64,000 bases of DNA from Hydrogenovibrio sp. SC-1 (lineage in GTDB: Bacteria; Pseudomonadota; Gammaproteobacteria; Thiomicrospirales; Thiomicrospiraceae). The stretch spans positions 1-64,000 of the forward strand of contig NZ_PKGB01000009.1 of NCBI RefSeq assembly GCF_002848135.1, read 5' to 3'. The number at the start of each line of letters is the position of its first letter. Position 1 is the stretch's first letter. The notes beneath the pieces were generated by a model that saw only the letters and a list, made by a program, of their open reading frames with translations, made no database searches and was not told the origin of the DNA. Shown piece by piece: positions 42,620-58,407 of this stretch. A program made the translations under genes and the position numbers.

Positions 42620-42635
42620 TGCCAAATGGTTCGCG

Positions 42636-44615: not shown

Positions 44616-44631
44616 GACGGTCGTCTAATTC

Positions 44632-45474
44632 CTATTCAAGGTGAAATCGCATTGAAAAATCAATGGCATGAAGGTGTTTTGTAATGGCGCCAGTCGAAAT
44701 ATAATCAACACCCGTTTGTGTCAATTCGGCTAAGTCGTTCAGCTCAACATTGCCTGATACTTCTAATTTACAGCGGTGATTGACCCATTCTACAGCTTGT
44801 TCAATCATTTCTAGTGAGAAATTGTCTAGCATAATAATATCCGCTTTGGCTTTAACGGCTTGTTCAACTTCCGCTAGACTTTCCGTTTCAACTTCTATGA
44901 GTTTATTTGGGTGATGGCTTTTGGCAAGGCTAACGGCTTGTTCGATGCCGCCAGCAGCCATAATATGATTTTCTTTGATGAGAATGGCATCGTATAGGCC
45001 AATACGATGGTTTGTGCCTCCACCACAGTGGACCGCATATTTTTGAGCCAGTCTTAATCCTGGAAGCGTCTTCCGAGTGTCTAGTAATTGAGTATAACCA
45101 TTTTTTAATGCTTTCACATAGCGGTTCGTTGCAGTGGCCGTGCCGGATAGAGTTTGTAAAAAGTTTAGTGCGCTGCGTTCTGCGGTGAGAATCGATTGAG
45201 CTGACCCTTTAAGGTGACAAATGACACTGCCGGCATGCACCGCTTCCCCTTCAGACACCTGCCAATCAAGCTCAATGTTAGCGTCAACTGCGCGAATAAC
45301 TCCATCAAACCATGGGCGGCCACAAATAATGGCGGGTTCATTGGTGATAACCGTTGCTGACGATTGTTGGGTTGGGGGAATTAGATCTGCGGTTAAATCG
45401 CCTGTCCCAATATCTTCTTGCAAAGCGGCTTGAATATTGACGGTTAGATCCTGGAAATAATTTATCTGTGTCAT
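44632..45474 (-). CDS. nadC: Quinolinate phosphoribosyltransferase
   Basis: Converts quinolinate + PRPP to nicotinate mononucleotide in de novo NAD synthesis. The 280-residue enzyme has ALQEDIGTGDLTADLIP, ERSALNFLQTLSGTAT, LLDTRKTLPGLRLAQKYAV in part, GGGTNHRIGLYDAILIKENH, EVETESLAE, and MLDNFS. All substrate Arg/Lys residues visible. In E. coli nadC is divergent from ampD; here a GGDEF gene lies between the two. Confidence 0.95.
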   Translation of the reverse strand: MTQINYFQDLTVNIQAALQEDIGTGDLTADLIPPTQQSSATVITNEPAIICGRPWFDGVIRAVDANIELDWQVSEGEAVHAGSVICHLKGSAQSILTAERSALNFLQTLSGTATATNRYVKALKNGYTQLLDTRKTLPGLRLAQKYAVHCGGGTNHRIGLYDAILIKENHIMAAGGIEQAVSLAKSHHPNKLIEVETESLAEVEQAVKAKADIIMLDNFSLEMIEQAVEWVNHRCKLEVSGNVELNDLAELTQTGVDYISTGAITKHLHAIDFSMRFHLE

Positions 45475-45503
45475 TTTTTGGTTTCTTAATAGTTAAAGTG
45501 TCA

Positions 45504-46568
45504 TCAGTCGTTTGGTGTCACAATTGCATTTCGGCCTGAATTTTTGGCTTGATACAGCAGCTTGTCCGCTCGCTGGATGGCTTCTTTCAGGGGGGTATTT
45601 TGCATGACTTCAACGAGCCCAGCACTAAATTGGATAGGCTTATCTAGTGACTGTTGTGAATTTAAATAATCATTTAACTCATTGAGTTGGGCGTATGCAA
45701 GTTTCAAAGTGCTCGGGAATAAGACTAAAAACTCTTCACCGCCGTGTCGTGATACCATTTGCCCTTTATCGGCGGTGATTTTTGAGAGGCCTTGAGCATA
45801 GTCTCTTAAAATTTGGTCCCCCATTTCATGTCCATACTGATCATTGTAGGTTTTAAAATGGTCAATGTCTAAAATGGCTAAACACAGCTGCGGATGACGG
45901 TGTTGCGCTAAAGTGTATATTTTGGAAAAGGCTTGTCGATTATAGAGCTGTGTTAAAGAATCTCTTTCAGCTAACACCTTGAGCTGTTGCGCATATTCTT
46001 CCGCTTTTTGTTTTTCAAGTTGGTAGCGCTTGCTCATCATATTCATAATTAAAATACAGACCCAGATCGATAATACATAGGTAAACAAGTTATCTTGCAG
46101 TCTTGCGGTATCGTCAGGGTATTGATAAATCCACTGTTGGGTTATAGGCTCAATGAGAAGCAGAATCATCGGTATAATCGTTAATAGACTAAAAAAGACC
46201 ATTTTTACGCGTGGTTTTTCATGGAAAAGCGTTTGAATATAGGTTATGGCGATAAAGGAAAGAATCAAGCTTGGTCCGAGAGACCCTGCATTAAAATACC
46301 AGTTAAGTGGGATAATTAACACTACCGAAATAAGAATAAAGACCATTGCCATGCTATCAAACTGATTGTAAAAACGAGAGCGATACCAAATGAATAAATG
46401 GATGGGGGTGACGATGCCGATTAGAAAGTAACTAAAATTGCGATCACCTGTTTCAAACTGCAAATTGAATAGTCCGGCTGATAGGTACAAAATGACACCG
46501 CCCAGTAGAATCCCATGATGGGTATAGTGGAAAGGGTTGTCTTTATTGCCGAGTAGCCAGTGAAACAT
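45504..46568 (-). CDS. Membrane diguanylate cyclase (GGEEF)
   Basis: A 354-residue protein with six to seven membrane segments (1-~185), a short coiled linker (QLEKQKAEEYAQQLKVLAERD) and a GGDEF domain: DSLTQLYNRQAF, ILDIDHFKTYNDQYGHEMGD and intact RHGGEEFLVLF. Active c-di-GMP synthesis is expected. It lacks a clear RxxD inhibitory site. Inserted between nadC and ampD with a 29-bp gap to nadC, so it may be co-transcribed with nadC and the antiporter gene. Confidence 0.88.
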   Translation of the reverse strand: MFHWLLGNKDNPFHYTHHGILLGGVILYLSAGLFNLQFETGDRNFSYFLIGIVTPIHLFIWYRSRFYNQFDSMAMVFILISVVLIIPLNWYFNAGSLGPSLILSFIAITYIQTLFHEKPRVKMVFFSLLTIIPMILLLIEPITQQWIYQYPDDTARLQDNLFTYVLSIWVCILIMNMMSKRYQLEKQKAEEYAQQLKVLAERDSLTQLYNRQAFSKIYTLAQHRHPQLCLAILDIDHFKTYNDQYGHEMGDQILRDYAQGLSKITADKGQMVSRHGGEEFLVLFPSTLKLAYAQLNELNDYLNSQQSLDKPIQFSAGLVEVMQNTPLKEAIQRADKLLYQAKNSGRNAIVTPND

Positions 46569-46760
46569 GAGCAGGAGGTTGCCTCTTAGGTACGAATCAG
46601 TGATGAAATAACCAAAATAATAGAAACTTTCGTTATTATAGAAGATTCATAAAAATGATTTTGAGATGAATTGGTTAAACCCTTTTGTTTTTAACGAAAG
46701 TGCGCCCTCATTGAATCATTTTGGCTAATTAAATTGTTCTGAAATTAAAAAGTAGAGTTG

Positions 46761-47339
46761 ATGAATTCATTCCAACCGCAACTATTTACTGTCGATCTTA
46801 ACCATCATCTTTTTCAAGGGGTTCGGTATGTACCGAGTCCCAATCAGGATGAGCGCCCTAATGAACAGGACTTATCTCTCATTGTGATTCATGGCATTAG
46901 TTTGCCCCCCGGTCAATTTGGTGGCAAAGGGGTAGAGCAACTTTTTACCAATCAACTCGATGAAACGGAAGATTTTTATTATGCTGAGATCGCGCACTTA
47001 AAAGTATCGTCTCATCTTTATATTCAGCGATCGGGTGCATTGACGCAATTTGTGCCTTTTAATCAACGGGCTTGGCATGCCGGCGTGTCCTGTTTTGAAG
47101 GACGAGAAAGATGTAATGACTTTTCAATTGGCATCGAATTGGAAGGAACCGATACGACCCCTTATACTGCCAGCCAATATCAAACATTAAAGCAAGTCAT
47201 TGAGGGATTGTTAAACGCTTATCCGAGTTTATCAAAGCGGCCGATTGTTGGGCATTGTGATATCGCGCCTCAACGTAAGACCGATCCAGGGCCTTACTTT
47301 GTATGGCAGGCTATTGATTCGACTTTTCAAAAAACGTAA
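46761..47339 (+). CDS. ampD: 1,6-anhydro-N-acetylmuramyl-L-alanine amidase AmpD
   Basis: Cytosolic zinc amidase that removes the stem peptide from recycled anhydro-muropeptides. About 192 residues: YVPSPNQDERP, IVIHGISLPPGQFGG with the first zinc histidine, AQFVPF-like TQFVPFNQRAWHAGVS, FSIGIELEGTD and VGHCDIAPQRKTDPGPYF with the remaining zinc ligands and catalytic lysine. ATG 46761 is preferred to the TTG three bases earlier. No signal peptide, as in AmpD and unlike AmiD. No ampE follows. Confidence 0.93.
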   Translation: MNSFQPQLFTVDLNHHLFQGVRYVPSPNQDERPNEQDLSLIVIHGISLPPGQFGGKGVEQLFTNQLDETEDFYYAEIAHLKVSSHLYIQRSGALTQFVPFNQRAWHAGVSCFEGRERCNDFSIGIELEGTDTTPYTASQYQTLKQVIEGLLNAYPSLSKRPIVGHCDIAPQRKTDPGPYFVWQAIDSTFQKT

Positions 47340-47373
47340 AGCGATAACGAAACAGCGAGGGACGGGGTTCTCT

Positions 47374-47598
47374 TTAAGCAATCCAGCCTACCTTTTTTGA
47401 GGAGGATTTTCCTTGGTTGGGTTTAGGTGTGAACTTTAAACAGGGTTGGCCCGAGCTCTCTAAAACCACAGCACTCGGCATCTGCTTGGTTTTAAAACCA
47501 AATGCTTTACATCCTCTTGGCTGTCTTTCATCCCAAGTGATGAAAAAATATCGGCACTTGAAGCAGTCAATGGGTTGAGGGGAATTAGTTTTACTCAT
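47374..47598 (-). CDS. Small four-cysteine protein, unknown
   Basis: A 74-residue protein with C12-x2-C15 (DCFKCRYFFITWD), then Cys in PRGCKAFGFK and GQPCLKFTP, which together could bind zinc. Similar short proteins occur in many bacteria, sometimes mislabelled as uracil-DNA glycosylase. The C-terminus is basic and serine-rich (KPNQGKSSSKKVG). Function unknown. It lies between convergent ampD and divergent flavodoxin genes. Confidence 0.68.
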   Translation of the reverse strand: MSKTNSPQPIDCFKCRYFFITWDERQPRGCKAFGFKTKQMPSAVVLESSGQPCLKFTPKPNQGKSSSKKVGWIA

Positions 47599-47636
47599 TA
47601 GGCTCGATAAAATTTTTTATGGATTAAATATAATTA

Positions 47637-47651
47637 AATCATGATATGATT
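47637..47651. promoter_or_regulatory. Palindromic site upstream of flavodoxin gene
   Basis: AATCAT (47637-47642) and ATGATT (47646-47651) are inverted around GAT in AT-rich DNA, about 110 bp before the fldA start. It has the size of a dimeric repressor site but does not match a Fur box well. No regulator can be named. Confidence 0.35.
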
Positions 47652-47759
47652 CGCACAAAATCAATACAGATTGCAACTGGAGATTACCAGCGGTTTTTCG
47701 TATACTTTGTAACCGAGTTTATTTTACAAGAAAACATCACATACTATAAAGGGTAAAGC

Positions 47760-48275
47760 ATGAGTCAAGTTGGATTATTCTACGGCACTGACACGGGCAA
47801 CACTGAACGCGTAGCAGATATGATTAAAGATAAGATCGGCAGTGATCTGGTTGATGTTTATGATATTGCCACCGCAAGCCCAGATGATTTTGCAAAGTAT
47901 GACAAGATCATTTTAGGTCAACCGACTTGGTATTATGGCGAGTTACAGAGTAGTTGGGATGACTTTTGGGATGAGTTTAAAGAAATCGATTTTACTGGAA
48001 AAACCTTCGCCTGTTTTGGGTTAGGGGATCAAGCTGATTACGCCGAGTATTTCCTAGATGCAATGGGCATGATGCATGATATTGCATTGGAAAATGGTGG
48101 GATTCCAGCGGGTTATTGGCCAACGGATGGCTTTGAATTTGATGAATCTAAAGCCATTACCGAAGATAGCGAATTTTTTGTTGGGCTTGCTATTGATGAA
48201 GACCAACAGCCTGAAATGACCGCCGAGCGTGTTGATACTTGGGTTGATCAGATCAAAGAAGAAATGGAATTATAA
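47760..48275 (+). CDS. fldA: Long-chain flavodoxin
   Basis: FMN electron carrier of 171 residues. The phosphate loop YGTDTGNTERVAD (about 9-21), the first FMN aromatic in PTWYYGELQSSWDDF and second in GLGDQADYAEYF are clear, and the ~20-residue insertion marks the long-chain class. Start ATG follows AAGGGTAAAGC. It is likely to replace ferredoxin or feed flavodoxin-dependent enzymes when iron is short; an iron-responsive promoter was looked for but not proven. A perfect palindromic terminator follows 36 bp after the stop. Confidence 0.94.
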   Translation: MSQVGLFYGTDTGNTERVADMIKDKIGSDLVDVYDIATASPDDFAKYDKIILGQPTWYYGELQSSWDDFWDEFKEIDFTGKTFACFGLGDQADYAEYFLDAMGMMHDIALENGGIPAGYWPTDGFEFDESKAITEDSEFFVGLAIDEDQQPEMTAERVDTWVDQIKEEMEL

Positions 48276-48311
48276 GAACTTTAGAGTATATAAATCCAAA
48301 CAAACACTCTT

Positions 48312-48340
48312 AAAACCACCCAGGCCTGGGTGGTTTTTTT
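48312..48340. terminator. 26-bp perfect palindrome, bidirectional terminator with CAGGCCTG core
   Basis: Bases 48312-48337 form an uninterrupted palindrome centred between 48324 and 48325, with four A at the left and seven T at the right. It sits between convergent fldA and the distal glycosyltransferase gene and can stop both. Confidence 0.92.
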
Positions 48341-48348
48341 ATTGCTGG

Positions 48349-49509
48349 CTATCCTTGATTGATGCTTGATTGATGTTTTTGGCAAAACTGCTGAAAGGAA
48401 TGAGCAATATCATAATTTTCGATATGAGGCCGACTGTTAGATTGCCATAGCCGCAAAATATTTTGATCGGTTAAGACATTATATAAAGTCTGCTGCCAGA
48501 CGTTTTGCTCATTCGCTTTTAAAATACAGCCCGTTTCGTTGTGTTTGATTAGGCTCTGAGGGCCACCAATATCTGATACTATGCAGCCCAGTCCGCTGGC
48601 CTGTGCTTCCATAATGACTTGTCCTAAAGTATCCGTTATCGACGGAAACACAAAAATATCGGATGATGCATAGAGCTTTGATAAAGCTTGACCTTGTATC
48701 GGTCCTAGAAAATGCACATGGTGATCTTGAGACTGATTTGCGAGTTTTCGAAATCTTCCCTCACCAACTAAAATCAAATCTGCTTCCAGCATAGGGTGAG
48801 CTTGCATTAGTGCTTGCCAGGTTTTGAGTAAGAAGGGGATGTTTTTTTCAACATTTATACGCCCGACATATAACACCTTAAGACGTTTTTCAGACAAATT
48901 AAATTGGTTCCAAATGGCATTGGATTGATGTTTTGGGTTGAAACGCTCTAAGTTAGTTCCTGGTCGCAGGGTTGAAATTTGATTTGTTTTCAGTTGAATG
49001 TCAGTTTCCATGATGGGTAAGTAGGCATCAGAACGCGAAAAAACATGCTCAAATGGTCTGTAAAATTTCGCCATTATTTTGTCGGTTTGTTTTTTTAACC
49101 AGTTCGAATGGGTGAGATCCAGTATATAGGCTGGGAAGTCGGTATGATAAGTGCCAACCACTGGGATTTTAAGTTTCTCTGCCTCTTTCTTGGCTATCCA
49201 TCCCAAGGGGCCAGGGGTTGAAATGTGCACTTTATCAGGTTGATGCTGCAGTAAAAGTTGGGTAATCGCCTTGCGGCTGGGCCAGACGATATCCAATTCT
49301 TGATAAAAGGGCATCGCCACTCTAAATCTCAGTGGTAAGTTATGAATATAAGACTTATCGGGAATGGGTTTTTGGGTGGCAGTGATGATTTGTAAATCAA
49401 AATGCTCTGACGCCTGACTGTTATAATGAGCCTGTTCGCCCATATCTTGAATAAATCTAGAAACACCATTTAAATCGCCGAGCGTATCAGTAAATAAGCA
49501 AACTTTCAT
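48349..49509 (-). CDS. GT4-family glycosyltransferase (distal gene of the pair)
   Basis: A 386-residue GT-B enzyme. Visible features are MKVCLFTDTLGDLNGVSRF at the N-terminus, VHISTPGPLGWIA and GTYHTDFPAYI. The C-terminal donor domain has LYVGRINVEKNIPFLL, LILVGEGRFR, FLGP, and SITDTLGQVIMEAQASGLGCI in place of the usual E-x7-E motif. ATG 49509 is chosen from domain start; ATG 49521 is possible. Acceptor is unknown; position beside a PlcP-like phosphoesterase gene, UDP-glucose dehydrogenase and DgkA suggests a lipid acceptor such as diacylglycerol. A palindromic terminator separates it from its partner, so expression may be lower. Confidence 0.82.
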   Translation of the reverse strand: MKVCLFTDTLGDLNGVSRFIQDMGEQAHYNSQASEHFDLQIITATQKPIPDKSYIHNLPLRFRVAMPFYQELDIVWPSRKAITQLLLQHQPDKVHISTPGPLGWIAKKEAEKLKIPVVGTYHTDFPAYILDLTHSNWLKKQTDKIMAKFYRPFEHVFSRSDAYLPIMETDIQLKTNQISTLRPGTNLERFNPKHQSNAIWNQFNLSEKRLKVLYVGRINVEKNIPFLLKTWQALMQAHPMLEADLILVGEGRFRKLANQSQDHHVHFLGPIQGQALSKLYASSDIFVFPSITDTLGQVIMEAQASGLGCIVSDIGGPQSLIKHNETGCILKANEQNVWQQTLYNVLTDQNILRLWQSNSRPHIENYDIAHSFQQFCQKHQSSINQG

Positions 49510-49585
49510 GATCGTTATCATCCATCGATTATTGTTGAAAAGATACAGGGCGAATGATGGGTTGCCTATGGAGACTTTTTGACGG

Positions 49586-49605
49586 AAAAAAGACCAGGCC
49601 TGGTC
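49586..49605 (-). terminator. CAGGCCTG palindrome as terminator between two glycosyltransferase genes
   Basis: GACCAGGCCTGGTC (49592-49605) is followed on the minus strand by six T (49591-49586). It lies right after the stop of the proximal glycosyltransferase gene and 77 bp before the start of the distal one. Confidence 0.75.
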
Positions 49606-49610
49606 ATTCA

Positions 49611-50657
49611 TTAATCCTGTTTAAAATATGTTGGGTCAATTACGGCAAGGTGACTTAAAAATTGTTTGGTTGCACCTTGCCAAGTATAGGTTGGAATGGA
49701 TTCAGCAATCTTTTTGGGGTGTGTTTTCAGTTCAAGCGCTTGCTGAATGGCGATGGCTAAATCTTCATTTAAATAGCCATTCACACCCGGGGTAACGATA
49801 TCTTTGGGTCCCGTCACCGGAAAGGCTGCGACGGGGGTGCCACATGCAATGGCCTCTAAATTTACAACGCCAAAAGTATCTGTTAGCGATGGAAAAACAA
49901 ATACATCTGCACTAGCGTAATAACTTGCCAACTCTGCACCTGACTTGGGTCCAACAAAATCAACATCGGGATAAGCTTTTTCTAGCGTTGCCAGATCTGG
50001 TCCTCTTCCAACCACCACTTTTTGTCCAACGAGGTTTAAGTCCAAAAAACTGAGGAGATTTTTTTCCGGCGCAATGCGACCCACATATAAGTAGATGGGT
50101 GTTTTATAGCCTAAGTCCGTTCTTGCTTGCGGATTGAAAATATTGGTGTCTACACCTCGGCTCATCAAAACCATTTTTGGAAATCCTTGCGATTTTAATT
50201 CATTCAGCACACTGGGTGCAGGCACCAGTGTCCGTTCCGAATGACCGTGAAATCGTCGCAAAATGGCATAAATCCAACTCTTAGGAATGGGAAAACGCGC
50301 ATGAATGTATTCTGGATATTTAGTGTGGTAAGCCGAGGTAAAAGGCAAATGGTGTTTTATTGCAACGCGCCTTGCTTTCCAGCCTAAAGCGCCTTCAGTC
50401 GCAATATGAATGGCATGGGGTTGAAATTGTAATATTCGTTTTTCTAATCCCTTGCTTCGCCATACGAAAGGGATTTCAGGATAGGTCGGTAGAGGCAGGT
50501 GCTGATAATTATTCGGCTCAATCACATCCACTTCAATTTGTTGGCTTTGTAAGTGATTAACCAATTGTGACAGGGTCGTGACAACCCCATTGACCTGTGG
50601 TTTCCAAGCATCGGTCACCAAGGTAATCCGTTGAATGGGTAGCTGACGGTCCTGCAT
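49611..50657 (-). CDS. GT4-family glycosyltransferase, Agt-like (proximal gene of the pair)
   Basis: A 348-residue GT-B enzyme: ITLVTDAWKPQVNGVVTTLSQLV, HIATEGALGWKARR, SAYHTKYPEYI, then LYVGRIAPEKNLLSF, VVVGRGPDLATLE, FVGPKSGAELASYYASADVF and SLTDTFGVVNLEAIACGTPV with AAFPVTGPKDIV. The last segments are typical of transferases encoded beside PlcP-type phosphoesterases, which glycosylate diacylglycerol with glucose or glucuronate. Acceptor and sugar are inferred from neighbours. It is divergent from the phosphoesterase gene, sharing a 180-bp promoter region with Pho-box-like repeats. Confidence 0.84.
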   Translation of the reverse strand: MQDRQLPIQRITLVTDAWKPQVNGVVTTLSQLVNHLQSQQIEVDVIEPNNYQHLPLPTYPEIPFVWRSKGLEKRILQFQPHAIHIATEGALGWKARRVAIKHHLPFTSAYHTKYPEYIHARFPIPKSWIYAILRRFHGHSERTLVPAPSVLNELKSQGFPKMVLMSRGVDTNIFNPQARTDLGYKTPIYLYVGRIAPEKNLLSFLDLNLVGQKVVVGRGPDLATLEKAYPDVDFVGPKSGAELASYYASADVFVFPSLTDTFGVVNLEAIACGTPVAAFPVTGPKDIVTPGVNGYLNEDLAIAIQQALELKTHPKKIAESIPTYTWQGATKQFLSHLAVIDPTYFKQD

Positions 50658-50748
50658 TTGAGCTTCCTTAAATTCGAATTTGTAACTTCAACCTTAAATG
50701 TTATTTATGAAAATAATATGAATGTCTTATTAATATTCTTTTTAGAAT

Positions 50749-50777
50749 CAGTCATTTAATTGTCAATAAAGCGTCAT
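50749..50777 (+). promoter_or_regulatory. Tandem Pho-box-like repeats
   Basis: Three 7-mers, CAGTCAT (50749-50755), TTGTCAA (50760-50766) and GCGTCAT (50771-50777), occur at exact 11-bp spacing with AT-rich 4-bp spacers TTAA and TAAA. The PhoB box has CTGTCAT units at this same spacing; matches are 6/7, 5/7 and 5/7. It lies between the divergent glycosyltransferase and PlcP-like genes. A TAAACT at 50799-50804 could be the -10 of the plus-strand promoter. Confidence 0.6.
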
Positions 50778-50839
50778 TTAGTCGGCGTTTCTGATCGCTA
50801 AACTGGGTCAAATTTTTGATAAATGACTGGATGATCCGG

Positions 50840-51676
50840 ATGAAAGACACCCCTTTAGCCTTGATGCCTGACTGGATGGAAAACATTGAAGCAGATGACT
50901 TGATTGTTGCCGAGAACAACCACCAATTTAGTGATTACCGCAGTATTTTTATATCCGATGTGCATCTGGGTTCAAAAGGGGCTAAGGCTGACTTTCTCTC
51001 CGAATTCTTGAAATATAACCGATGTGAAAAATTGTATTTAGTAGGCGATATTATTGATGGATGGCGTTTACGAAAACGTATCTTTTGGCCGCAAGCCCAT
51101 ACCAATGTGATTCGACGTATTCTGACAAAAGCGAAGCGTGGCACAGATGTCATCTTTGTTACCGGCAATCATGATGATTTTCTTAGGCGCTATTCTGGCG
51201 TGGATTTTGGCAATATTAAACTCACGGACGAAGCGGTTCATACCTGCACCAACGGTGAAAAATTATTAGTGGTCCACGGCGATAAGTATGACGGTGTGAT
51301 TCAAACTCAAAAATGGTTGGCAGTGCTGGGCGATTGGGGATATGAGTCACTGGTAGTGGCCAACCGATACTTCAATCGCATTCGTCATAAGTTCGGGATG
51401 GGCTACTGGTCATTATCTGCTTATATCAAACAAAAGGTCAAATCAGCAGTTTCGTTTATTTCAGCTTATGAAGAGGCCGTGGTGGGTGATTGTCATAAAA
51501 AAGGCTACAAAGGGGTGGTCTGTGGTCATATTCACCATCCTGAGATTCGCGAAATTAACGGCATAGATTATTTTAATTGTGGTGACTGGGTAGAGTCTTG
51601 TACCGCCATTGTTGAAACACAATCGGGAGAAATGAAGTTGCTGCGTTGGGTGGAAATCAATCATGACAATCAATAA
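50840..51676 (+). CDS. PlcP-like metallophosphoesterase (LpxH-superfamily)
   Basis: About 278 residues with the calcineurin-type metal motifs: IFISDVHLGSKGAKADF, LYLVGDIIDGWRL, VTGNHDDF, VVHGDKYD and VCGHIHHPE, with the closing FNCGDWVESCTA. Sequence databases usually label this group UDP-2,3-diacylglucosamine hydrolase. The DIIDGWRLRK-FWPQAH, YWSLSAYIKQKVK and GDWVESCT pieces match the PlcP branch, which removes headgroups from phospholipids to give diacylglycerol during phosphate limitation. Start codon is uncertain: ATG 50840, ATG 50831 or TTG 50816. It is followed 44 bp later by ugd. Confidence 0.82.
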   Translation: MKDTPLALMPDWMENIEADDLIVAENNHQFSDYRSIFISDVHLGSKGAKADFLSEFLKYNRCEKLYLVGDIIDGWRLRKRIFWPQAHTNVIRRILTKAKRGTDVIFVTGNHDDFLRRYSGVDFGNIKLTDEAVHTCTNGEKLLVVHGDKYDGVIQTQKWLAVLGDWGYESLVVANRYFNRIRHKFGMGYWSLSAYIKQKVKSAVSFISAYEEAVVGDCHKKGYKGVVCGHIHHPEIREINGIDYFNCGDWVESCTAIVETQSGEMKLLRWVEINHDNQ

Positions 51677-51720
51677 ACGATTTTTGTTTTGAAGCAAGCC
51701 GTTGAGGTGGGGAGAATAGA

Positions 51721-53052
51721 GTGAAAATCAGTGTTTTTGGTACAGGATATGTTGGCTTAGTCACTGGCGCCTGCCTATCAGAGGTTGGTCATGACGTAAT
51801 TTGTGTTGATCATAATTCCGATATTATTGCGCAATTGACACAGGGAAAAATTCCGATTTGGGAACCTGGGTTAGAGTCTATCGTGCAGCGAAATCATCAA
51901 GTTGGGAATTTAACTTTTACCACTGATGCTCGACAAGCCGTTGAGCAAACCGATGTGATTTTTATTGCAGTTGGTACGCCCCCGGGTGAAGATGGTTCTG
52001 CCGACTTACAGCAGGTATTGGCGGTATCAAAAGAAATAGCACTGGCAATGAATGGTCCTAAACTGTTAATTAACAAGTCGACGGTTCCGGTTGGTACAGC
52101 CCCAAAAGTGCAAGAGACGGTGACGGCTCATCTGGAGATGTCTTACTCGTTCAGCGTGGTTTCAAATCCAGAGTTTTTGAAAGAAGGATCGGCGGTGACT
52201 GATTTTATGAAACCGGATCGGATTATTGTCGGGGTTGATAATGACGCTGCGAGAGAAACACTAAAGCAGCTTTATGCGCCCTTTAATCGTAATCATGATC
52301 GAATGGTGTTTATGGATGTTCCTTCGGCGGAATTGACAAAGTATGCCGCTAATACGTTACTGGCAACCAAAATATCGTTTATGAATGAGCTGGCAAACCT
52401 AGCTGAAGATTTAGGTGCAGATATTGAATCGGTTCGTCAAGGCATTGGTTCTGACCCTAGAATTGGTTACCACTTTATTTATCCCGGCTGTGGTTATGGC
52501 GGTTCTTGTTTTCCAAAAGATGTTAAGGCTTTAATTCATATCGGCCAATCTCAAGGCCATGCCATGGATATTTTAAACTCGGTTGAAGCGGTCAATAAAC
52601 AACAGAAGGATCGATTATTCAATAAGTTAGCGAGGCACTATGGTAGCGAATCCAATTTAAAAGGCCTTAAATTCGCCGTTTGGGGGCTTACTTTTAAGCC
52701 TAATACCGATGACCTGCGAGAAGCGCCCAGTTTGAATTTAATACAGGACTTACTGAGGGTTGGTGCTCGAGTTCAAGTTTTTGATCCAGTTGCAATGGAT
52801 GAAGCTAAGCAGTTATTTAACGGGATTAACGGTATTGATTTTTGTCAAGATAAGTACGCTGCGTTGAATGATGCGGATGCTTTAATCTTGGTTACGGAGT
52901 GGCGGAGTTTTCAAGCTCCAGACTTTGTTGAAATGGAAGAGCGGTTGACAAAAAAAACGTTGTTTGATGGACGTAATCAGTATGATCCTCATTGGATGAA
53001 AGAACAGGGCTGGCATTATGAAGGCATCGGTCGTGGAGTTATTGGAAAATGA
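51721..53052 (+). CDS. ugd: UDP-glucose 6-dehydrogenase
   Basis: Oxidises UDP-glucose to UDP-glucuronate using two NAD+. The 443-residue enzyme has FGTGYVGLVTGACLSEVGH at the N-terminus, NPEFLKEGSAV, the helix ELTKYAANTLLATKISFMNE, the catalytic cysteine in YGGSCFPKDV and WGLTFKPNTDDLREAPS. GTG start with GGGGAGA upstream. No capsule genes adjoin it; it lies between the phosphoesterase gene and dgkA and overlaps dgkA by four bases. UDP-glucuronate would be the sugar donor for glucuronosyl-diacylglycerol by the nearby transferases (inference). Confidence 0.95.
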   Translation: MKISVFGTGYVGLVTGACLSEVGHDVICVDHNSDIIAQLTQGKIPIWEPGLESIVQRNHQVGNLTFTTDARQAVEQTDVIFIAVGTPPGEDGSADLQQVLAVSKEIALAMNGPKLLINKSTVPVGTAPKVQETVTAHLEMSYSFSVVSNPEFLKEGSAVTDFMKPDRIIVGVDNDAARETLKQLYAPFNRNHDRMVFMDVPSAELTKYAANTLLATKISFMNELANLAEDLGADIESVRQGIGSDPRIGYHFIYPGCGYGGSCFPKDVKALIHIGQSQGHAMDILNSVEAVNKQQKDRLFNKLARHYGSESNLKGLKFAVWGLTFKPNTDDLREAPSLNLIQDLLRVGARVQVFDPVAMDEAKQLFNGINGIDFCQDKYAALNDADALILVTEWRSFQAPDFVEMEERLTKKTLFDGRNQYDPHWMKEQGWHYEGIGRGVIGK

Positions 53053-53429
53053 AACCAGGGCATCGTGGATTTGTCAGAATTTTTAAAGCTGCTGGCTACT
53101 CATGGAAGGGGATAAAAGCCTGTTATCAAAATGAGTCCGCATTTCGTCAAGAACTGGGGTTGTTACTAGTTCTCAGTCCATTAGCGATGTGGTTGTCCAA
53201 TAATGCGGTGGAGTTTATTTTACTAATTGGTTCGGTCGTGATGCTATTGGTGGTCGAGTTGCTCAATACTGCCATAGAAATGGTAGTGGATAGACAAGGC
53301 GAGGAGTGGCACGAACTATCTGGATTGGCGAAGGATCTGGGATCGGCAGCGGTGTTTGTGATGTTGGGATTATGTGTGTTGGTGTGGGGGGCTTTAATTA
53401 TTTCCTATTTAGATTTAAGCCCATTTTGA
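53049..53429 (+). CDS. dgkA: Diacylglycerol kinase (prokaryotic DgkA)
   Basis: Small integral-membrane kinase phosphorylating diacylglycerol to phosphatidate with ATP. The 126-residue protein has the N-terminal amphipathic region, ACYQNESAFRQELGLLLVL, the core VVELLNTAIEMVVDR (with the catalytic glutamate) and AKDLGSAAVFVML, and three membrane helices. ATGA overlap with ugd shows tight coupling. In this locus it can return diacylglycerol made by the PlcP-like enzyme to phospholipid synthesis. A palindromic terminator follows 26 bp later. Confidence 0.93.
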   Translation: MKPGHRGFVRIFKAAGYSWKGIKACYQNESAFRQELGLLLVLSPLAMWLSNNAVEFILLIGSVVMLLVVELLNTAIEMVVDRQGEEWHELSGLAKDLGSAAVFVMLGLCVLVWGALIISYLDLSPF

Positions 53430-53454
53430 ACTACGTGTATTTGATTTGAAGCGT

Positions 53455-53482
53455 AAAAATCAACCAGGCCTGGGGGATTTTT
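53455..53482 (+). terminator. Terminator of the plcP-like/ugd/dgkA transcript with CAGGCCTG core
   Basis: A 28-base near-palindrome centred between 53468 and 53469: AAAAATC on the left pairs with GATTTTT on the right, with two A-G mismatches at 53462-53463 against 53474-53475. The core copy is 53465-53472. Confidence 0.8.
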
Positions 53483-53544
53483 ATATAAAATTTAATCTGA
53501 AAGCGGCAAAATTGTTACGTGTTTTTCTAAGCAGTTGTTTTTAT

Positions 53545-53572
53545 TTGATTCTGATTAAGAAATCGTTATAAT
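53545..53572 (+). promoter_or_regulatory. Sigma70 promoter of the rpsF operon
   Basis: TTGATT (53545-53550) and TATAAT (53567-53572) are 16 bp apart, about 110 bp before the rpsF start codon. Confidence 0.7.
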
Positions 53573-53608
53573 ACCTGCCTTTCAGTCTTAACAATTCTGA
53601 ATTTCCTT

Positions 53609-53649
53609 GCTTCACTGACTTAACCCGCACATCGGATTAGGCAGGAAGC
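53609..53649 (+). promoter_or_regulatory. Candidate S6:S18 ribosomal leader hairpin
   Basis: GCTTC (53609-53613) pairs with GAAGC (53645-53649), then CTG with CAG, and TTAACC with GG(A)TTA. The apical part contains CCGCACAT, reminiscent of the CCG/CACA elements of the known S6:S18 autoregulatory leader. Location in the rpsF leader fits. The resemblance is judged by eye only. Confidence 0.45.
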
Positions 53650-53678
53650 TTACTTTAAATCCATAAGGAGATTAATGA

Positions 53679-54023
53679 ATGCGTCATTATGAAGTCGTAT
53701 TTTTAGTGCACCCTGATCAAAGCGAACAGGTTCCTGCCATGCTAGAGCGTTACCGCGGTCTTATCGAAGAAAATGGTGGAGCGATTCACCGTCTAGAAGA
53801 TTGGGGTCGTCGTCAACTTGCTTACTTAATCAATAAAGTCCACAAAGCCCATTATATTTTGATGAATATCGAATGTGATCAGGCGACTTTAAGCGAGCTT
53901 GAAAACTTGTTTTATTACAACGATGCGGTTTTACGTAATATGTTTATTAAGCGTAAAGAAGCAATTACAGAGCCTTCAGTAATGGCTTCTCAGAAAGAAG
54001 ATAAGCGTAGAGGAGATAAGTAA
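53679..54023 (+). CDS. rpsF: 30S ribosomal protein S6
   Basis: S6 pairs with S18 on the 30S platform. The 114-residue protein has [44 protein letters not shown] and [29 protein letters not shown] precedes the ATG (53679; another ATG four bases earlier is out of frame). Its tail ends EDKRRGDK; E. coli S6 ends in glutamates, the RimK acceptor. rpsR starts in the S6 stop codon. Confidence 0.97.
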
Positions 54024-54250
54024 TGGCTAGAGGTTTCGGAAGAAAAAAATTCTGTCGTTTCACAGTTGAAGGCGTTAAAGAGATTGATTATAAAGATCTT
54101 GATACCTTAAGAAGCTACATCACAGAAACAGGTAAAATCGTTCCAAGTCGTATTACTGGAACCTGTGCAAAATATCAGCGTCAGTTGTCTACAGCGATTA
54201 AACGCGCTCGTTATTTGGCATTATTGCCTTATACAGATCAACATAAATAA
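54023..54250 (+). CDS. rpsR: 30S ribosomal protein S18
   Basis: 75 residues, full length: [61 protein letters not shown] in consecutive segments. One cysteine pair (C11, C48) is retained but not a full zinc site. The ATG overlaps the rpsF stop by one base (TAATG). Confidence 0.97.
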
Positions 54251-54282
54251 GTTTGATTGTGGAATGAACAAAGGATAAATAC

Positions 54283-55167
54283 ATGTTAAGTGTTGCAAAT
54301 TTTATTATGCGGGGTCCCAAACAGGCCTTCATAGCGACACTGATTTTATCCATTTTAACTGTTTGGATTGCCCCGTTAGGGGTGTTAGTGGGCGCGATCA
54401 TTGCCTTGGTAACATTAAGAATCGGTGTACAAGAAGGCTTTAAAGTTCTCCTTGTTGCTATGGTCTCAGTACTGGCTGTTACCAGCTATTATGCTGGCTC
54501 CATGCTCCCAGGCTGGGTTGCTGTTTTTGAATATATGTTACCGATTTGGCTGTTGAGCTGGGTATTGCGACAAACCAATTCATTAGCATTAAGTCTCAGC
54601 TTAAATATGTTGATGGTTGGGGTGGCTGTTATCGGCTTTCACTGGTTAGTTGGTGACCCCGTTAGCTGGTGGCAACAAGTTTTTAAAGACTACTTGTTGC
54701 CAGTGTTTGAGCAAAGCGGTACCGCTTACCCACAGCAGATGCTAGAGAGCATGACAGAGGTTGCAACACTGCTATTGGCCATGTTCGTGGTGGTGTTATG
54801 GTTTAGTATCATTTTGTTAGGAAGATGGTGGCAGAGTAAGCTCTATGCCCCAGGTCAATTCCAAGCAGATTTTTATGATATTCGGCTACCTAAAAACATT
54901 GCTTTTTTAGCTGTGGTGGTTGCGTTGCTGGGCTTGTTTACCCAAGCTGTGCTAGTTCAAGATTTATCAAGTGTGCTGATGGCCGGTTTGATGTTTCAAG
55001 GATTGGCCGTTGCACACCACTCGGCCAATAAGCGCCAACTGAATGGTTTTTGGTTAGGGGGTTTATATGTTTTATTATTTTTGTTCCCACAAACAATATT
55101 GATTTTAGCGACTATCGGTTTAATAGACACTTGGGTGGATATTCGAAACCGTTGGTCTCAGTCCTAA
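54283..55167 (+). CDS. DUF2232-type membrane protein
   Basis: A 294-residue protein with about eight hydrophobic segments, starting MLSVANFIMRGPKQAFIATLILSIL and containing LPIWLLSWVLRQTNSLALSLSL and FWLGGLYVLLFLFPQTILILA. Proteins of this type (DUF2232) are repeatedly found between rpsR and rplI in gammaproteobacteria, so the location supports the call. Function unknown. AAAGGATAAATAC precedes the ATG. Confidence 0.82.
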   Translation: MLSVANFIMRGPKQAFIATLILSILTVWIAPLGVLVGAIIALVTLRIGVQEGFKVLLVAMVSVLAVTSYYAGSMLPGWVAVFEYMLPIWLLSWVLRQTNSLALSLSLNMLMVGVAVIGFHWLVGDPVSWWQQVFKDYLLPVFEQSGTAYPQQMLESMTEVATLLLAMFVVVLWFSIILLGRWWQSKLYAPGQFQADFYDIRLPKNIAFLAVVVALLGLFTQAVLVQDLSSVLMAGLMFQGLAVAHHSANKRQLNGFWLGGLYVLLFLFPQTILILATIGLIDTWVDIRNRWSQS

Positions 55168-55219
55168 AATGGCTCAAGGGTCAGTTTAGGGTGAGCATTT
55201 AATTTTAGAGGTTTTAGCC

Positions 55220-55669
55220 ATGAATGTTATTTTACTTGAAAAAGTAGCCAACCTAGGAACACTGGGTGATCAGGTGACGGTTAAGTCTGGATTTGCACGT
55301 AATTTCTTAATCCCTCAGGGGAAAGCAAAGCCAGCAACTAAAGACAATATTGCCGAGTTTGAAGCACGTCGTGCAGACTTAGAGAAGCAAGCTGCTGAAG
55401 CTTTAGCTGCTGCTCAGGCGCTTTATGAACAAATGAACGGCACTGTTGTGACCATTGAATCGGTTGCCGGTGATGAAGGGAAGTTGTTCGGTTCAATCGG
55501 TACAGCGGATATCGCAGATGCATTAGCAACCGCTGGTTTCGAAGTTGAACGTAAAAACATCCGTATGCCAGAAGGCGCTTTGCGCTTTGTGGGAACTTTC
55601 GAGTTCGATGTTGAATTACACTCAGATGTCATTGCATCAATTACGGTTGAAGTGAAAGCTGCTGAATAA
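55220..55669 (+). CDS. rplI: 50S ribosomal protein L9
   Basis: 149 residues. N-terminal domain [32 protein letters not shown] in segments, long connecting helix ([23 protein letters not shown]) and C-terminal rRNA-binding domain ([32 protein letters not shown]). GAGG lies upstream of the ATG. Last gene of the ribosomal operon, closed by a strong terminator. Confidence 0.97.
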
Positions 55670-55695
55670 GCTTTTAACCTATCGGTTAGCAATGT

Positions 55696-55724
55696 AAAAA
55701 GCGAGGCGAGTCCTCGCTTTTTTT
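55696..55724 (+). terminator. Strong intrinsic terminator after rplI
   Basis: GCGAGG (55701-55706) and CCTCGC (55712-55717) with a 5-base loop, five A upstream and seven T downstream. Confidence 0.95.
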
Positions 55725-55877
55725 ATATGGGTGCCCAGTCAATTTGTGGCAATTTTTTTGAAAGCGATTTAACAATTCATTTAATCTTGCTCGTTATTGG
55801 CCGTATAATATTCGATTCATTTATAAGCCGAAGGTTACGTTTGATAGCTGATGTGGTGACCGTTAATATGGGAATCT

Positions 55878-57299
55878 ATGAGTCAAGAAGCCTTATTTAA
55901 AACCCCTCCTCATTCAATTGAATCTGAGCAATCTGTCATCGGTGGTTTGTTATTGGATAACGAAAAGTTATCTGACGTTTCAGTTGTCTTAAGAGAATTC
56001 GATTTTTATACCCAAGCGCATCAATTGATTTATGGTGCGATTTTAACGCTTAGTGAGCGTGGTCGTCCGTTTGATGTCGTCACAGTGATCGAGCATCTAG
56101 ACTCAATCGGTAAACTGGTTGATGCGGGAGACAAGACCTATTTAGTGGACTTGGTTTCCAATACGCCGGGTTCGGTCAATATTGAATTCTATGCGGAAAT
56201 TGTGCGGGAAAAATCCATATTACGGGCATTAATCACCGCTTCGAATGAAATCTCAGAAGCCAGTTATTTTCCGCAAGGCCGTGAAATTCGGGAAGTGCTT
56301 GATTACGCCGAATCAAAGGTCATGCAGATCGCAGAGCATGGTTCCAGTCAACAGCGTGATTACCAAACCATGCGTGACCTGTTGAATCAGGCTTTGTCCA
56401 CCATTGATGAGCGCTTTAATTCTGATGGCACCATTACGGGTGCGGCAACCAAGTTCAGCGATTTTGATGAGGTCACATCAGGTTTGCAAAAGGGTGACCT
56501 AATTATTGTTGCGGGACGGCCATCAATGGGGAAAACCACCTTCTCGATGAATATGGCAGAGAATATTGCTTTGCAAGGTGTCCCTGTTGCGGTTTTTAGT
56601 ATGGAAATGCCAGGTTCTCAATTGGTGTTGAGGATGATTAGTTCATTAGGACGCATTGAAGCTGATCGTATTCGGACCGGTAAATTGCAAGATCAGGACT
56701 GGCATAATTTAAATCTCGCCGTGGGCCAGTTGAGCACAGCCAATCTCTATATTGATGATACACCAGCATTGATGATTACCGATCTGCGTGCTCGAGCCAG
56801 GCGGATTGATAAAGATATTCGCGATGAACAATTTAAAGAAGCCGAAGCAAAAGGGGTCGAAGACCCAGCAGCGCATGTGACTGGATTAGGATTAATTGTG
56901 ATCGATTACTTGCAATTAATGCGAGGCTCAACCAATACCGATAACCGTGTGAATGAAATCTCTGAAATTTCTCGTGGTTTGAAGGCGATTGCCAAAGAAT
57001 TGGATGTTCCCGTGGTGGCGTTGTCTCAGTTAAGTCGTAACCTAGAACAACGTCCAGATAAGCGCCCCAAAATGGCAGATTTGCGTGAATCTGGGGCGAT
57101 TGAGCAGGATGCGGATTTGATTATTTTTATTTATAGAGATGAAGTTTATCACCCTGACTCGGATGATAAAGGCACGGCCGAAATTATTTTAGGCAAACAT
57201 CGTAATGGTGCCTTGGATACGGTTCGCTTGACCTTTATCGGGCAATATACCAAATTTGAAAATCATGCAGGCTTTGATGTACCCGATGATCCTTATTAA
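55878..57299 (+). CDS. dnaB: Replicative DNA helicase DnaB
   Basis: Hexameric 5'-3' helicase of the replisome. 473 residues: N-terminal collar (PPHSIESEQSVIGGLLLDN), Walker A in VAGRPSMGKTTFSMN, Walker B in LGLIVIDYLQLM, SQLSRNLEQRPDKRPKMADLRESG in segments and the arginine finger region FIYRDEVY. No intein is present at the usual Walker A or other sites. GGGAA lies five bases before the ATG. alr follows after 34 bp, the common order. A TATAAT at 55804-55809 may be its -10. Confidence 0.96.
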   Translation: MSQEALFKTPPHSIESEQSVIGGLLLDNEKLSDVSVVLREFDFYTQAHQLIYGAILTLSERGRPFDVVTVIEHLDSIGKLVDAGDKTYLVDLVSNTPGSVNIEFYAEIVREKSILRALITASNEISEASYFPQGREIREVLDYAESKVMQIAEHGSSQQRDYQTMRDLLNQALSTIDERFNSDGTITGAATKFSDFDEVTSGLQKGDLIIVAGRPSMGKTTFSMNMAENIALQGVPVAVFSMEMPGSQLVLRMISSLGRIEADRIRTGKLQDQDWHNLNLAVGQLSTANLYIDDTPALMITDLRARARRIDKDIRDEQFKEAEAKGVEDPAAHVTGLGLIVIDYLQLMRGSTNTDNRVNEISEISRGLKAIAKELDVPVVALSQLSRNLEQRPDKRPKMADLRESGAIEQDADLIIFIYRDEVYHPDSDDKGTAEIILGKHRNGALDTVRLTFIGQYTKFENHAGFDVPDDPY

Positions 57300-57333
57300 C
57301 CATCTCAATATTGTAAAAGGCGGTCATTAAACG

Positions 57334-58407
57334 ATGGGTGCTTATCGTCCTGTTCGAGCGGTCATTGACTTATCCGCCTTGCCAAAAAATCTGCAAGTGG
57401 TTCGTCATTATGCGCCTAAGTCTAAAATTTTAGCCATTATTAAATCCAATGGTTATGGTCATGGTATTGGACGGGTGGCCGCGCAATTGAGTAAAGCGGA
57501 TGGGTTTGGTGTTGCATGTATTGAAGAAGCCATATTACTTCGGCAAAAGGGTTTTCTGCATCGGATTGTTTTGTTAGAAGGCTTGTTTTCAGAAGCTGAA
57601 TTAGCACTCGCCATTCAGCATCGATTTGATTTTGTGGTTCATTCGGACCTGCAATTATCGTGGTTATTGGCCGCACAAACATCTACGCCACTTAATATTT
57701 GGCTTAAAGTGGATACCGGTATGCATCGGTTAGGGTTTTTGCCAGAGGCATTACCCGATGTTTTCGAAAAATTGAATCAATTAAAAATGCCATTTCAACT
57801 GTATTGCCTTTCGCACTTCTCTTCTGCGGATGAATCTGAGGCAGTGACTCAGCAACAATTCAGTGTTTTTCAAGAGGTGACAGCACCCGTTTCTTGTGCC
57901 AAAAGTCTGGCAAATTCTGCAGCGGTTCAGCGTTTTCCAGAGAGTCACTTAGATTGGGTTCGTCCAGGCATTATGCTCTATGGTGCGAGTGCAACACATG
58001 AGCGGGTGGCCGGGCTGCACCCAGTAATGACACTGATGTCTAAAGTCATTGCATTAAAGTGGTTGGATGTCGATGAAGCCGTTGGATACGGTCAAACTTG
58101 GCAAGCAACTCAGAGAACCTTAATCGCAGTGGTGGCAATTGGCTATGGTGATGGATATCCGCGTCATGCACCAAACGGCACGCCGGTATTGATTCATGGA
58201 CAGCAGGTGCCGTTAGTGGGGCGAGTGTCGATGGACATGATTACCGTGGATGTCACCACATTATCGGATCAAATGGCTATTGGTGATGACGTGATTTTGT
58301 GGGGGAAGGGGTTGAGTGTGGATGTCATTGCCCAGGCTAGTGGAACCATTGGTTATGAATTATTATGCGGCGTCACCCAGCGGGTGCCAAGAGTAGAGGA
58401 AACCTAA
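57334..58407 (+). CDS. alr: Alanine racemase
   Basis: PLP enzyme making D-alanine for peptidoglycan. The 357-residue protein has the PLP lysine K37 in LAIIKSNGYGHG, IWLKVDTGMHRLGF, LSHFSSAD, WVRPGIMLYG, the GYGDGYPR loop and GRVSMDMITVDVT. All catalytic landmarks are in place. nudF follows three bases after its stop. Confidence 0.95.
   Translation: MGAYRPVRAVIDLSALPKNLQVVRHYAPKSKILAIIKSNGYGHGIGRVAAQLSKADGFGVACIEEAILLRQKGFLHRIVLLEGLFSEAELALAIQHRFDFVVHSDLQLSWLLAAQTSTPLNIWLKVDTGMHRLGFLPEALPDVFEKLNQLKMPFQLYCLSHFSSADESEAVTQQQFSVFQEVTAPVSCAKSLANSAAVQRFPESHLDWVRPGIMLYGASATHERVAGLHPVMTLMSKVIALKWLDVDEAVGYGQTWQATQRTLIAVVAIGYGDGYPRHAPNGTPVLIHGQQVPLVGRVSMDMITVDVTTLSDQMAIGDDVILWGKGLSVDVIAQASGTIGYELLCGVTQRVPRVEET

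Follow-up and report, generated by a model that had tools for sequence, protein, structure and literature searches.

The stretch of Hydrogenovibrio sp. SC-1 DNA analyzed here (64,000 nucleotides, hereafter the window; located on contig C9 of a genome of 2.45 Mb) carries a divergent cluster of five genes: two family 4 glycosyltransferase (GT4) genes, GT4b and GT4a, on the minus strand, and plcP, ugd and dgkA on the plus strand, with a Pho box in front of plcP (Table 1). We consider it highly probable that this is a PhoB-controlled membrane-lipid remodeling locus, in which PlcP would free diacylglycerol (DAG), GT4b would glycosylate it, DgkA would recycle it and GT4a would make a further glycolipid. 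An initial annotation had placed the five genes in such a divergent cluster, and all of them were found, as open reading frames (ORFs) with clear domains, at the positions that it gave, their kinds being confirmed by Pfam, NCBIfam and PDB sequence searches.

The gap between plcP and ugd is 44 bases and the end of ugd overlaps dgkA by 4 bases, so that plcP-ugd-dgkA are laid out like an operon. The order GT4a-GT4b-plcP-dgkA is kept in 6 of 38 loci of relatives (ugd being present in none of the six), which shows that the arrangement is not due to chance.

Table 1. Features of the divergent locus, with positions in the window
Feature	Position	Strand	Remark
GT4a, family 4 glycosyltransferase (GT-B) in a PlcP-linked clade outside Agt1 and Agt2	48349..49509	-	ORF listed to 49611; probable start Met35 (~49509), the start of its homologues
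GT4b, Agt1-type, predicted diacylglycerol glycosyltransferase	49611..50657	-	47% to P. aeruginosa PA3218
Weak Pho-box-like repeats, GT4b direction	50707..50724	-	10/14; shuffle p = 0.10, not significant
Pho box, three 11-bp phased repeats CAGTCATTTAA TTGTCAATAAA GCGTCATTTAG, upstream of plcP	50749..50781	+	
PlcP, predicted phospholipase C-type, calcineurin-type phosphoesterase	50840..51676	+	ORF listed from TTG 50816; probable start ATG 50840, as in relative locus L033
ugd, second, locally inserted UDP-glucose 6-dehydrogenase	51721..53052	+	GTG start
dgkA, diacylglycerol kinase	53049..53429	+	4-bp overlap with ugd

The phosphoesterase and the Agt1-type glycosyltransferase

Judging by its relatives, the window phosphoesterase is PlcP, for which a phospholipase C activity may be expected from homology. 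It is 60% identical over 239 amino acids to P. aeruginosa PA3219 and 45% identical over 254 amino acids to S. meliloti PlcP (these two being 47% identical to each other; both reference records come from other strains of the same species as the characterized proteins), and the suggestion of a PlcP-like enzyme in the initial annotation is borne out to this extent. No second PlcP was found in the genome besides the window copy. The orthologues of the characterized PlcPs came from records filed as plasmids (PLSDB), where chromosome-like pieces of P. aeruginosa and the 3.7-Mb S. meliloti replicon that carry plcP stand as plasmids and where PlcP is annotated as LpxH (UDP-2,3-diacylglucosamine diphosphatase). 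The S. meliloti locus (L103) adjoins genes for an acyl-homoserine-lactone synthase and a LuxR regulator, and we take its PlcP, from the gene order, to be SMc00171. In P. aeruginosa (L104 and L105), plcP is followed by agt1 and then by cyaB; the numbers PA3219 and PA3218 are here presumed from gene order together with PMC8528852.

GT4b is, by its sequence relationships, an Agt1-type enzyme, and a glycosyl-DAG activity is likewise predicted by homology. It is 47% identical over 327 residues to PA3218 (Agt1), which makes monoglucosyl-DAG when expressed in E. coli (PMC8528852). A FastTree tree built from 107 GT4 proteins of the examined loci (119 found, with partial and identical ones removed) places GT4b and Agt1 in one clan of 69 (support 1.0), apart from an Agt2 clan of 8 (support 1.0). 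Regarding the residues reported as essential in GTcp, the Agt of SAR11 (PMC8231724), GTcp is not in our alignment and its columns were located on GT4b via published motifs, that of Trp320 being inferred; 12 positions could be located in this way, Gly82 and Gly85 not being among them, and the window GT4b keeps 11 of the 12, with Ser at Thr162. The Trp320 column holds Trp in 43 of 43 GT4b-group, 25 of 26 Agt1-group and 8 of 8 Agt2-group proteins, and all eight Agt2-group proteins keep both Trp320 and Arg163.

The Pho box and predicted phosphate control

A scan of the genome with the core GTCA-N7-GTCA-N7-GTCA returned two perfect matches, namely the plcP site and a site before an EAL-domain gene. 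Allowing up to one mismatch brings the core matches in the genome to 14 (three of them overlapping in one array), versus 6 for the reversed control pattern; one of the one-mismatch sites precedes a PBP_like_2 (pstS-type) gene, divergent from a gene for a PHO4-family phosphate permease, and PhoB (330.8 bits, over cut-off) is encoded ~3 kb from this pstS-type gene. The Pho box is also the most conserved block of the plcP intergenic region: an alignment of seven same-genus regions, from the window and six relatives, has 30 invariant columns, 19 of them within the repeats, and shows poor conservation elsewhere. Throughout the family, the best triple-box scores average 13.9 in 37 plcP upstream regions versus 12.0 for 313 other genes of the same loci (p = 1.3e-8), with the loci not being phylogenetically independent. 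This control is conservative, because many of its top scorers are lipid genes (btaA, of the DUF3419 family, and olsB-like and olsF-like genes).

Other genes of the same loci bear boxes as well. Three of the seven GT4a genes scored (L034-L036) are preceded by a Pho box of their own at a distance of 63-65 bases, a box in the GT4b direction reaches p < 0.03 in four of nine regions tested (L037, L039, L041 and L044; the GT4b upstream score in the family test is mostly the shared plcP box), and several btaA genes of relatives carry Pho boxes. In the Hydrogenovibrio genome itself a long Pho-box array (C7:76923-76981; L117-L119) precedes an OlsF-like gene (Acyltransf_2 plus Acetyltransf_5), so that the response probably extends to ornithine lipid.

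Two further matches in the window, at 50567-50584 within the GT4b coding sequence and at 43616 within an antiporter gene, were judged to be chance because they are coding; the latter (17/21) outscores the plcP site (16/21) on the same scale. Elsewhere in the genome, the only other perfect triple core (C5:128677-128702; L110) lies ~130-140 bases before the EAL-domain gene (with a weak CBS match), where a link from phosphate to cyclic-di-GMP is possible, and a one-mismatch triple core (C8:86833-86858; L120) lies just before a histidine phosphatase gene, which is followed by a metallophosphoesterase gene.

Diacylglycerol kinase and the neighborhoods of plcP in relatives

PlcP is present in 42 of 58 family genomes. 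Of the 38 loci fetched from the 41 PlcP genomes other than that of the window, 37 have agt (GT4b), btaAB or both no more than 4 kb from plcP, locus L063 being the exception. In a sample of the class, 69 of 229 genomes have a PlcP match, and 62 of the 69 loci were fetched (omitting the window's own genome, the family member G002 and five weak or partial matches). Within 4 kb of plcP, these 62 loci hold a GT4 gene in 39 cases (at least two in 8), dgkA in 10, btaA in 4, olsB in 3 and ugd in 2; of the two ugd neighbors, that of L193 completes a clear plcP-agt-ugd cluster, and the second is a weak match (30%). Genes for betaine and ornithine lipids appear in relatives as alternative neighbors of plcP or as Pho-boxed genes.

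The dgkA product is classed as a prokaryotic DAG kinase by its clear DAGK_prokar domain, with near full-length similarity to E. coli DgkA and an E-value of 5e-35 to a solved DgkA (NCBIfam gave no family match). It is the only dgkA found in its genome at E 1e-8; a second, unlinked dgkA occurs in three of the six sister genomes that have the linked gene. Its proximity to plcP far exceeds chance, with ~0.2 neighbors expected at random among the 62 class loci against the ten observed, and with eight housekeeping control genes each at 0/62. The ten cases come from eight families and the genes are variously oriented, so that simple inheritance of the gene order is an unlikely explanation. In one of them (L224), plcP, a third GT4 type, dgkA and agt2 all run in one direction. 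The proposal of the initial annotation that DgkA recycles DAG is a reasonable one, and gains from this recurrent linkage and from the enrichment of DagK on phosphate depletion in Pseudomonas putida (PMC5082522); a role as a valve for DAG is our conjecture. As for the compactness of the locus, which the same annotation found attractive, all the parts are indeed present, but the layout is not unique, given the plcP-agt-ugd (L193) and plcP-GT-dgkA-agt2 (L224) arrangements in other gammaproteobacteria.

The second ugd

The Ugd encoded in the locus has the three domains of a nucleotide-sugar dehydrogenase (TIGR03026, 450.7 bits versus a cut-off of 189.8) and is of the UDP-glucose type. Its best equivalog, TuaD, is reached with 478 bits, below the cut-off of 700, so that the exact substrate is predicted rather than assigned. 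That Ugd provides UDP-glucuronate, as initially suggested, is reasonable on these terms, and a UDP-glucose 6-dehydrogenase is enriched on phosphate depletion in P. putida (PMC5082522).

The genome holds another ugd on contig C1, 42% identical to the locus copy, and the only copies in the sister genomes are ~40% identical to it. Among the 58 family genomes, the closest ugd is 64% identical and occurs in two genomes without a PlcP match, and the locus copy itself was not seen in the other 57. A match at E 1e-180 was obtained from the genome itself and from none of the other 273 of the 274 genomes of a class sample. In the nearest relative (L033), plcP and dgkA lie ~100 bases apart with no ugd between them; from this, and from the presence of only distant copies elsewhere, we conclude that the operon acquired a second ugd in this species or in a recent ancestor of it. 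The gene was likely gained horizontally; that this local Ugd feeds a glucuronolipid is a conjecture.

GT4a, a separate glycosyltransferase clade

GT4a is 32% identical to GT4b, 29.6% to Agt1 and 26.6% to Agt2 (L109). The Agt2 reference is the plcR-adjacent transferase of L109, which we take from gene order to be PA0842. In the FastTree tree, the GT4a clade forms a clan of its own of 17 proteins (support 0.995). All 17 conserve G16, the catalytic His104, R190, K195, T257, G259 and E264, and the D256 column holds Asp in 15 and Glu in 2 (the characterized Agt2 has Glu there). The clade differs at three positions reported as essential in GTcp, Arg163, F258 and Trp320, of which Arg163 and Trp320 are implicated in DAG binding (PMC8231724): the Arg163 column holds Pro in 15 and Ala in 2, the F258 column Leu in 17 of 17, and the Trp320 column Ile in 17 of 17, with a Trp within 8 columns in a single protein. 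The argument from Arg163 is weak, because the active PA3218 has Lys at that position (and Tyr at 258) and the window GT4a has an Arg one column ahead of it; the missing Trp is the main sign, within this alignment, of a different acceptor side. An assignment of GT4a as Agt2 (or Agt1) was rejected on the tree clan, the identities and the residues.

An AlphaFold2 model of GT4a has a GT-B fold (mean predicted local distance difference test score 89.2) and is closest to MshA (Z 40.3, root mean square deviation 2.5, 367 residues aligned). No DAG glycosyltransferase is named among the 50 best structure matches listed, an absence which by itself shows nothing, and the placement by NCBIfam is uninformative, all 25 families listed being far below cut-off.

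GT4a is present in 20 of the 58 family genomes, all 20 of which have a PlcP match (one partial), versus 22 of the other 38 (Fisher p = 3e-4, with shared ancestry not removed). It lies within the plcP locus in the six sister loci and elsewhere in the genome in genus g3. Outside the family such matches are rare, amounting to 6 of 274 class genomes at E 1e-40, and these six comprise two family members, two proteins that are Agt2-type on the tree (L134 and L135) and two two-part proteins of 825 and 871 amino acids (L132 and L133) whose GT4 half is 32-33% related to GT4a. One of the genomes with a two-part protein (G199) has no PlcP match, so that the wider GT4a clade is not strictly tied to PlcP. 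In two Campylobacterota metagenome-assembled genomes (L158, a 5.5-kb contig, and L164), a gene for a relative of GT4a (37-39% identity) is transcribed divergently from plcP, and no GT4b was found within 4 kb. Taken together, GT4a is probably an active, second PlcP-associated glycosyltransferase, with an acceptor side predicted to be unlike that of Agt.

Some neighboring observations may be recorded here. The GT4 half of the two-part proteins (L132:232-2709 and L133:280-2895) has Arg and Trp at the Agt positions, and the N-terminal half has a PHP match below the Pfam cut-off in L132 (23.0 of 26.4 bits) and none in L133. A third GT4 type, like a Thiodictyon plasmid gene (L107), stands behind plcP together with dgkA in L224, L229 and L230, and in its 11 proteins the Arg163 column is occupied by Thr and the Trp320 column lacks a Trp. 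In relatives, a small protein of 118-154 amino acids, which has no Pfam family and in which hydrophobic stretches can be seen by eye, is encoded between GT4b and GT4a (L034:8018-8482 and L037:4373-4729) and is missing from the window. Additionally, an EamA-type transporter gene follows GT4a in L034.

Proposed mechanism and alternative explanations

The gene identities, homologies, Pho box, conservation and linkage described above are sequence-level results, from which the following course of events is proposed. When phosphate runs out, PhoB would bind the triple Pho box at 50749-50781 and turn on plcP-ugd-dgkA. PlcP would cut the phospho-headgroup off membrane phospholipids, leaving DAG, which GT4b would turn into a phosphorus-free glycolipid (monoglucosyl-DAG, possibly also glucuronosyl-DAG), while the co-transcribed second Ugd would supply UDP-glucuronate and so widen the range of products. 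DgkA would convert surplus DAG to phosphatidic acid, limiting DAG build-up and allowing phospholipid resynthesis, and GT4a would most likely make a further glycolipid, the product being, by conjecture, a glucuronosyl lipid or one with a second sugar on the first product. The phosphate-starvation PlcP/Agt remodeling that the initial annotation had proposed accordingly finds strong support at the level of sequence, in the orthology to characterized enzymes, the conserved Pho box, the separate LpxH and the lipid-gene neighbors.

Several results weigh against this reading. No Agt2 orthologue, which would have been an evident user of UDP-glucuronate, was found in the genome. In the window, the two-repeat score for plcP alone reaches no better than p = 0.045 or 0.017 (two tests), and region by region p < 0.05 is attained by 14 of 39 plcP regions. 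The box in the GT4b/GT4a direction is weak and not significant (p = 0.10), and there is no Pho box directly upstream of the window GT4a (best 13/21). None of the lipid genes sought lies within 4 kb of plcP in 16 of the 62 class loci, some of which end at contig ends. DgkA, moreover, spends ATP in re-phosphorylating DAG, which seems contrary to the saving of phosphate unless the enzyme acts as a valve.

Different roles for the locus as a whole can be weighed against this. The best NCBIfam and PDB sequence matches of the window PlcP are to LpxH, and public annotation names its orthologues accordingly, as would suit an LpxH-type UDP-diacylglucosamine hydrolase in a locus serving lipopolysaccharide synthesis. 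Nevertheless, the scores are far below the curated LpxH cut-offs (53.8 of 134 bits and 41.3 of 190.35 bits in NCBIfam), a genuine, separate LpxH is encoded on contig C5 of the same genome (250 bits versus the cut-off of 190.35) and is 24% identical to the window PlcP over 119 amino acids, and the enzyme has the identities of 60% and 45% to characterized PlcPs; LpxH was ruled out on these grounds, and a lipopolysaccharide function is barely conceivable. The case which the initial annotation had named as fatal, a phosphoesterase of this specificity in a genome with no other lpxH, does not apply. Polysaccharide clusters commonly include GT4 enzymes and Ugd, which, along with a Ugd score under the TuaD cut-off, would fit two GT4 genes and ugd forming an exopolysaccharide or capsule cluster with plcP and dgkA as bystanders. 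We find this improbable, since no polysaccharide polymerase or flippase is among the flanking genes named from 41846 to 58407 (the antiporter, nadC, a GGDEF protein, an amidase, a flavodoxin, ribosomal proteins S6 and L9, DUF2232, dnaB, alr and a laccase-domain protein), ugd is missing from the sister loci that retain GT4a-GT4b-plcP-dgkA, GT4b groups with Agt1, and Pho boxes occur in relatives at GT4a (3/7) and at several btaA genes.

Within the remodeling reading, two proposals for GT4a were given nearly equal weight. It may be a glucuronosyl-DAG synthase that uses the UDP-glucuronate of Ugd on plain DAG and replaces Agt2, as the lack of an Agt2 orthologue elsewhere in the genome and the recruitment of a second ugd would suggest; in the two Campylobacterota loci, furthermore, no GT4 other than the GT4a-type one was detected within 4 kb of plcP, as though this enzyme could attach the first sugar unaided, and Agt1 itself has Lys at Arg163, so that this position is not absolute. 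Against this tentative proposal stand the Ile at Trp320, Leu at Phe258 and Pro or Ala at Arg163 throughout the clade, when the Agt2 group retains Trp320 and Arg163 in 8/8, and the occurrence of GT4a in six sister loci without a local ugd. Alternatively, and as the initial annotation had suggested, GT4a could add a second sugar to the product of GT4b, giving a diglycosyl lipid. The catalytic His and most donor-site residues are kept with the putative DAG-side Trp gone, PlcP is found in every family genome with GT4a, and the window GT4a follows GT4b on the same strand; however, the Campylobacterota loci show the GT4a type beside plcP with no GT4b within 4 kb, and the best structural matches, with MshA in the lead, are generic GT4 enzymes that give no hint of a second-sugar enzyme, and we regard this proposal as possible yet doubtful.

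A more ambitious synthesis, put forward tentatively and with distinctly less confidence than the remodeling role itself, is that GT4a represents a third branch of phosphate-starvation lipid glycosyltransferases beside Agt1 and Agt2, marked by the loss of the putative DAG-side Trp and making a phosphorus-free lipid so far undescribed in these bacteria, that DgkA is an overlooked, regular part of PlcP modules in gammaproteobacteria, a valve leading DAG back into phospholipid synthesis, and that the second ugd was captured to commit the operon to glucuronolipid.

Significance and comparison with known systems

The locus would extend PlcP-Agt remodeling, known in alphaproteobacteria, Pseudomonas, methanotrophs and marine heterotrophs, to Hydrogenovibrio-type sulfur oxidizers, and offers a single compact genetic target for lipid remodeling. 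It singles out a PlcP-linked GT4a clade whose acceptor may differ, and a DAG kinase beside PlcP far above chance, and raises the testable question of what steers PlcP-released DAG to sugar, to betaine or back to phospholipid. The PlcP-Agt core was already known, the PlcP and Agt steps having support in P. aeruginosa, SAR11/Phaeobacter and Methylosinus (PMC8528852, PMC4796936, PMC8231724 and PMC9239053). As far as the open-access literature shows, the new elements are the GT4a clade as a partner of PlcP, the statistical linkage of dgkA to plcP and the inserted ugd; for a plcP-ugd-agt cluster, or PlcP with DgkA, the excerpts describe co-regulation (PMC5082522) and not gene linkage.

The closest known system is that of P. 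aeruginosa (plcP-agt1, PA3219-PA3218, and agt2, PA0842), where monoglucosyldiacylglycerol (MGDG, by Agt1) and glucuronic acid diacylglycerol (GADG, by Agt2) were demonstrated by expression in E. coli (PMC8528852). The likeness lies in PlcP (60%), GT4b/Agt1 (47%) and a Pho box before plcP. There, however, agt1 is co-directional behind plcP and agt2 lies elsewhere, whereas in the window the glycosyltransferases are divergent, the second one is of a type other than Agt2, and plcP has ugd and dgkA behind it. In the PlcP-Agt systems of SAR11, Agrobacterium and Phaeobacter (PMC4796936, PMC8231724), plcP likewise often adjoins an Agt-type GT4 gene with predicted Pho boxes, and GT4b has the same catalytic residues; in contrast, operon-encoded dgkA or ugd are not described in the excerpts of these two articles, and the window GT4a is without residues reported there as essential. 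In Pseudomonas putida BIRD-1, PlcP, DagK, OlsAB and UDP-glucose 6-dehydrogenase (TuaD) are enriched in the proteome on phosphate depletion, and PlcP, OlsAB and TuaD are absent from a phoBR mutant; unlike the genes of the window, these are co-regulated proteins which the excerpted text does not describe as one locus (PMC5082522). Finally, the plcP-btaAB loci of relatives (e.g. L038 and L040-L043) also join plcP to enzymes that would use its DAG, with Pho boxes before several btaA genes, but there the DAG would go to betaine lipid, instead of or besides glycolipid.

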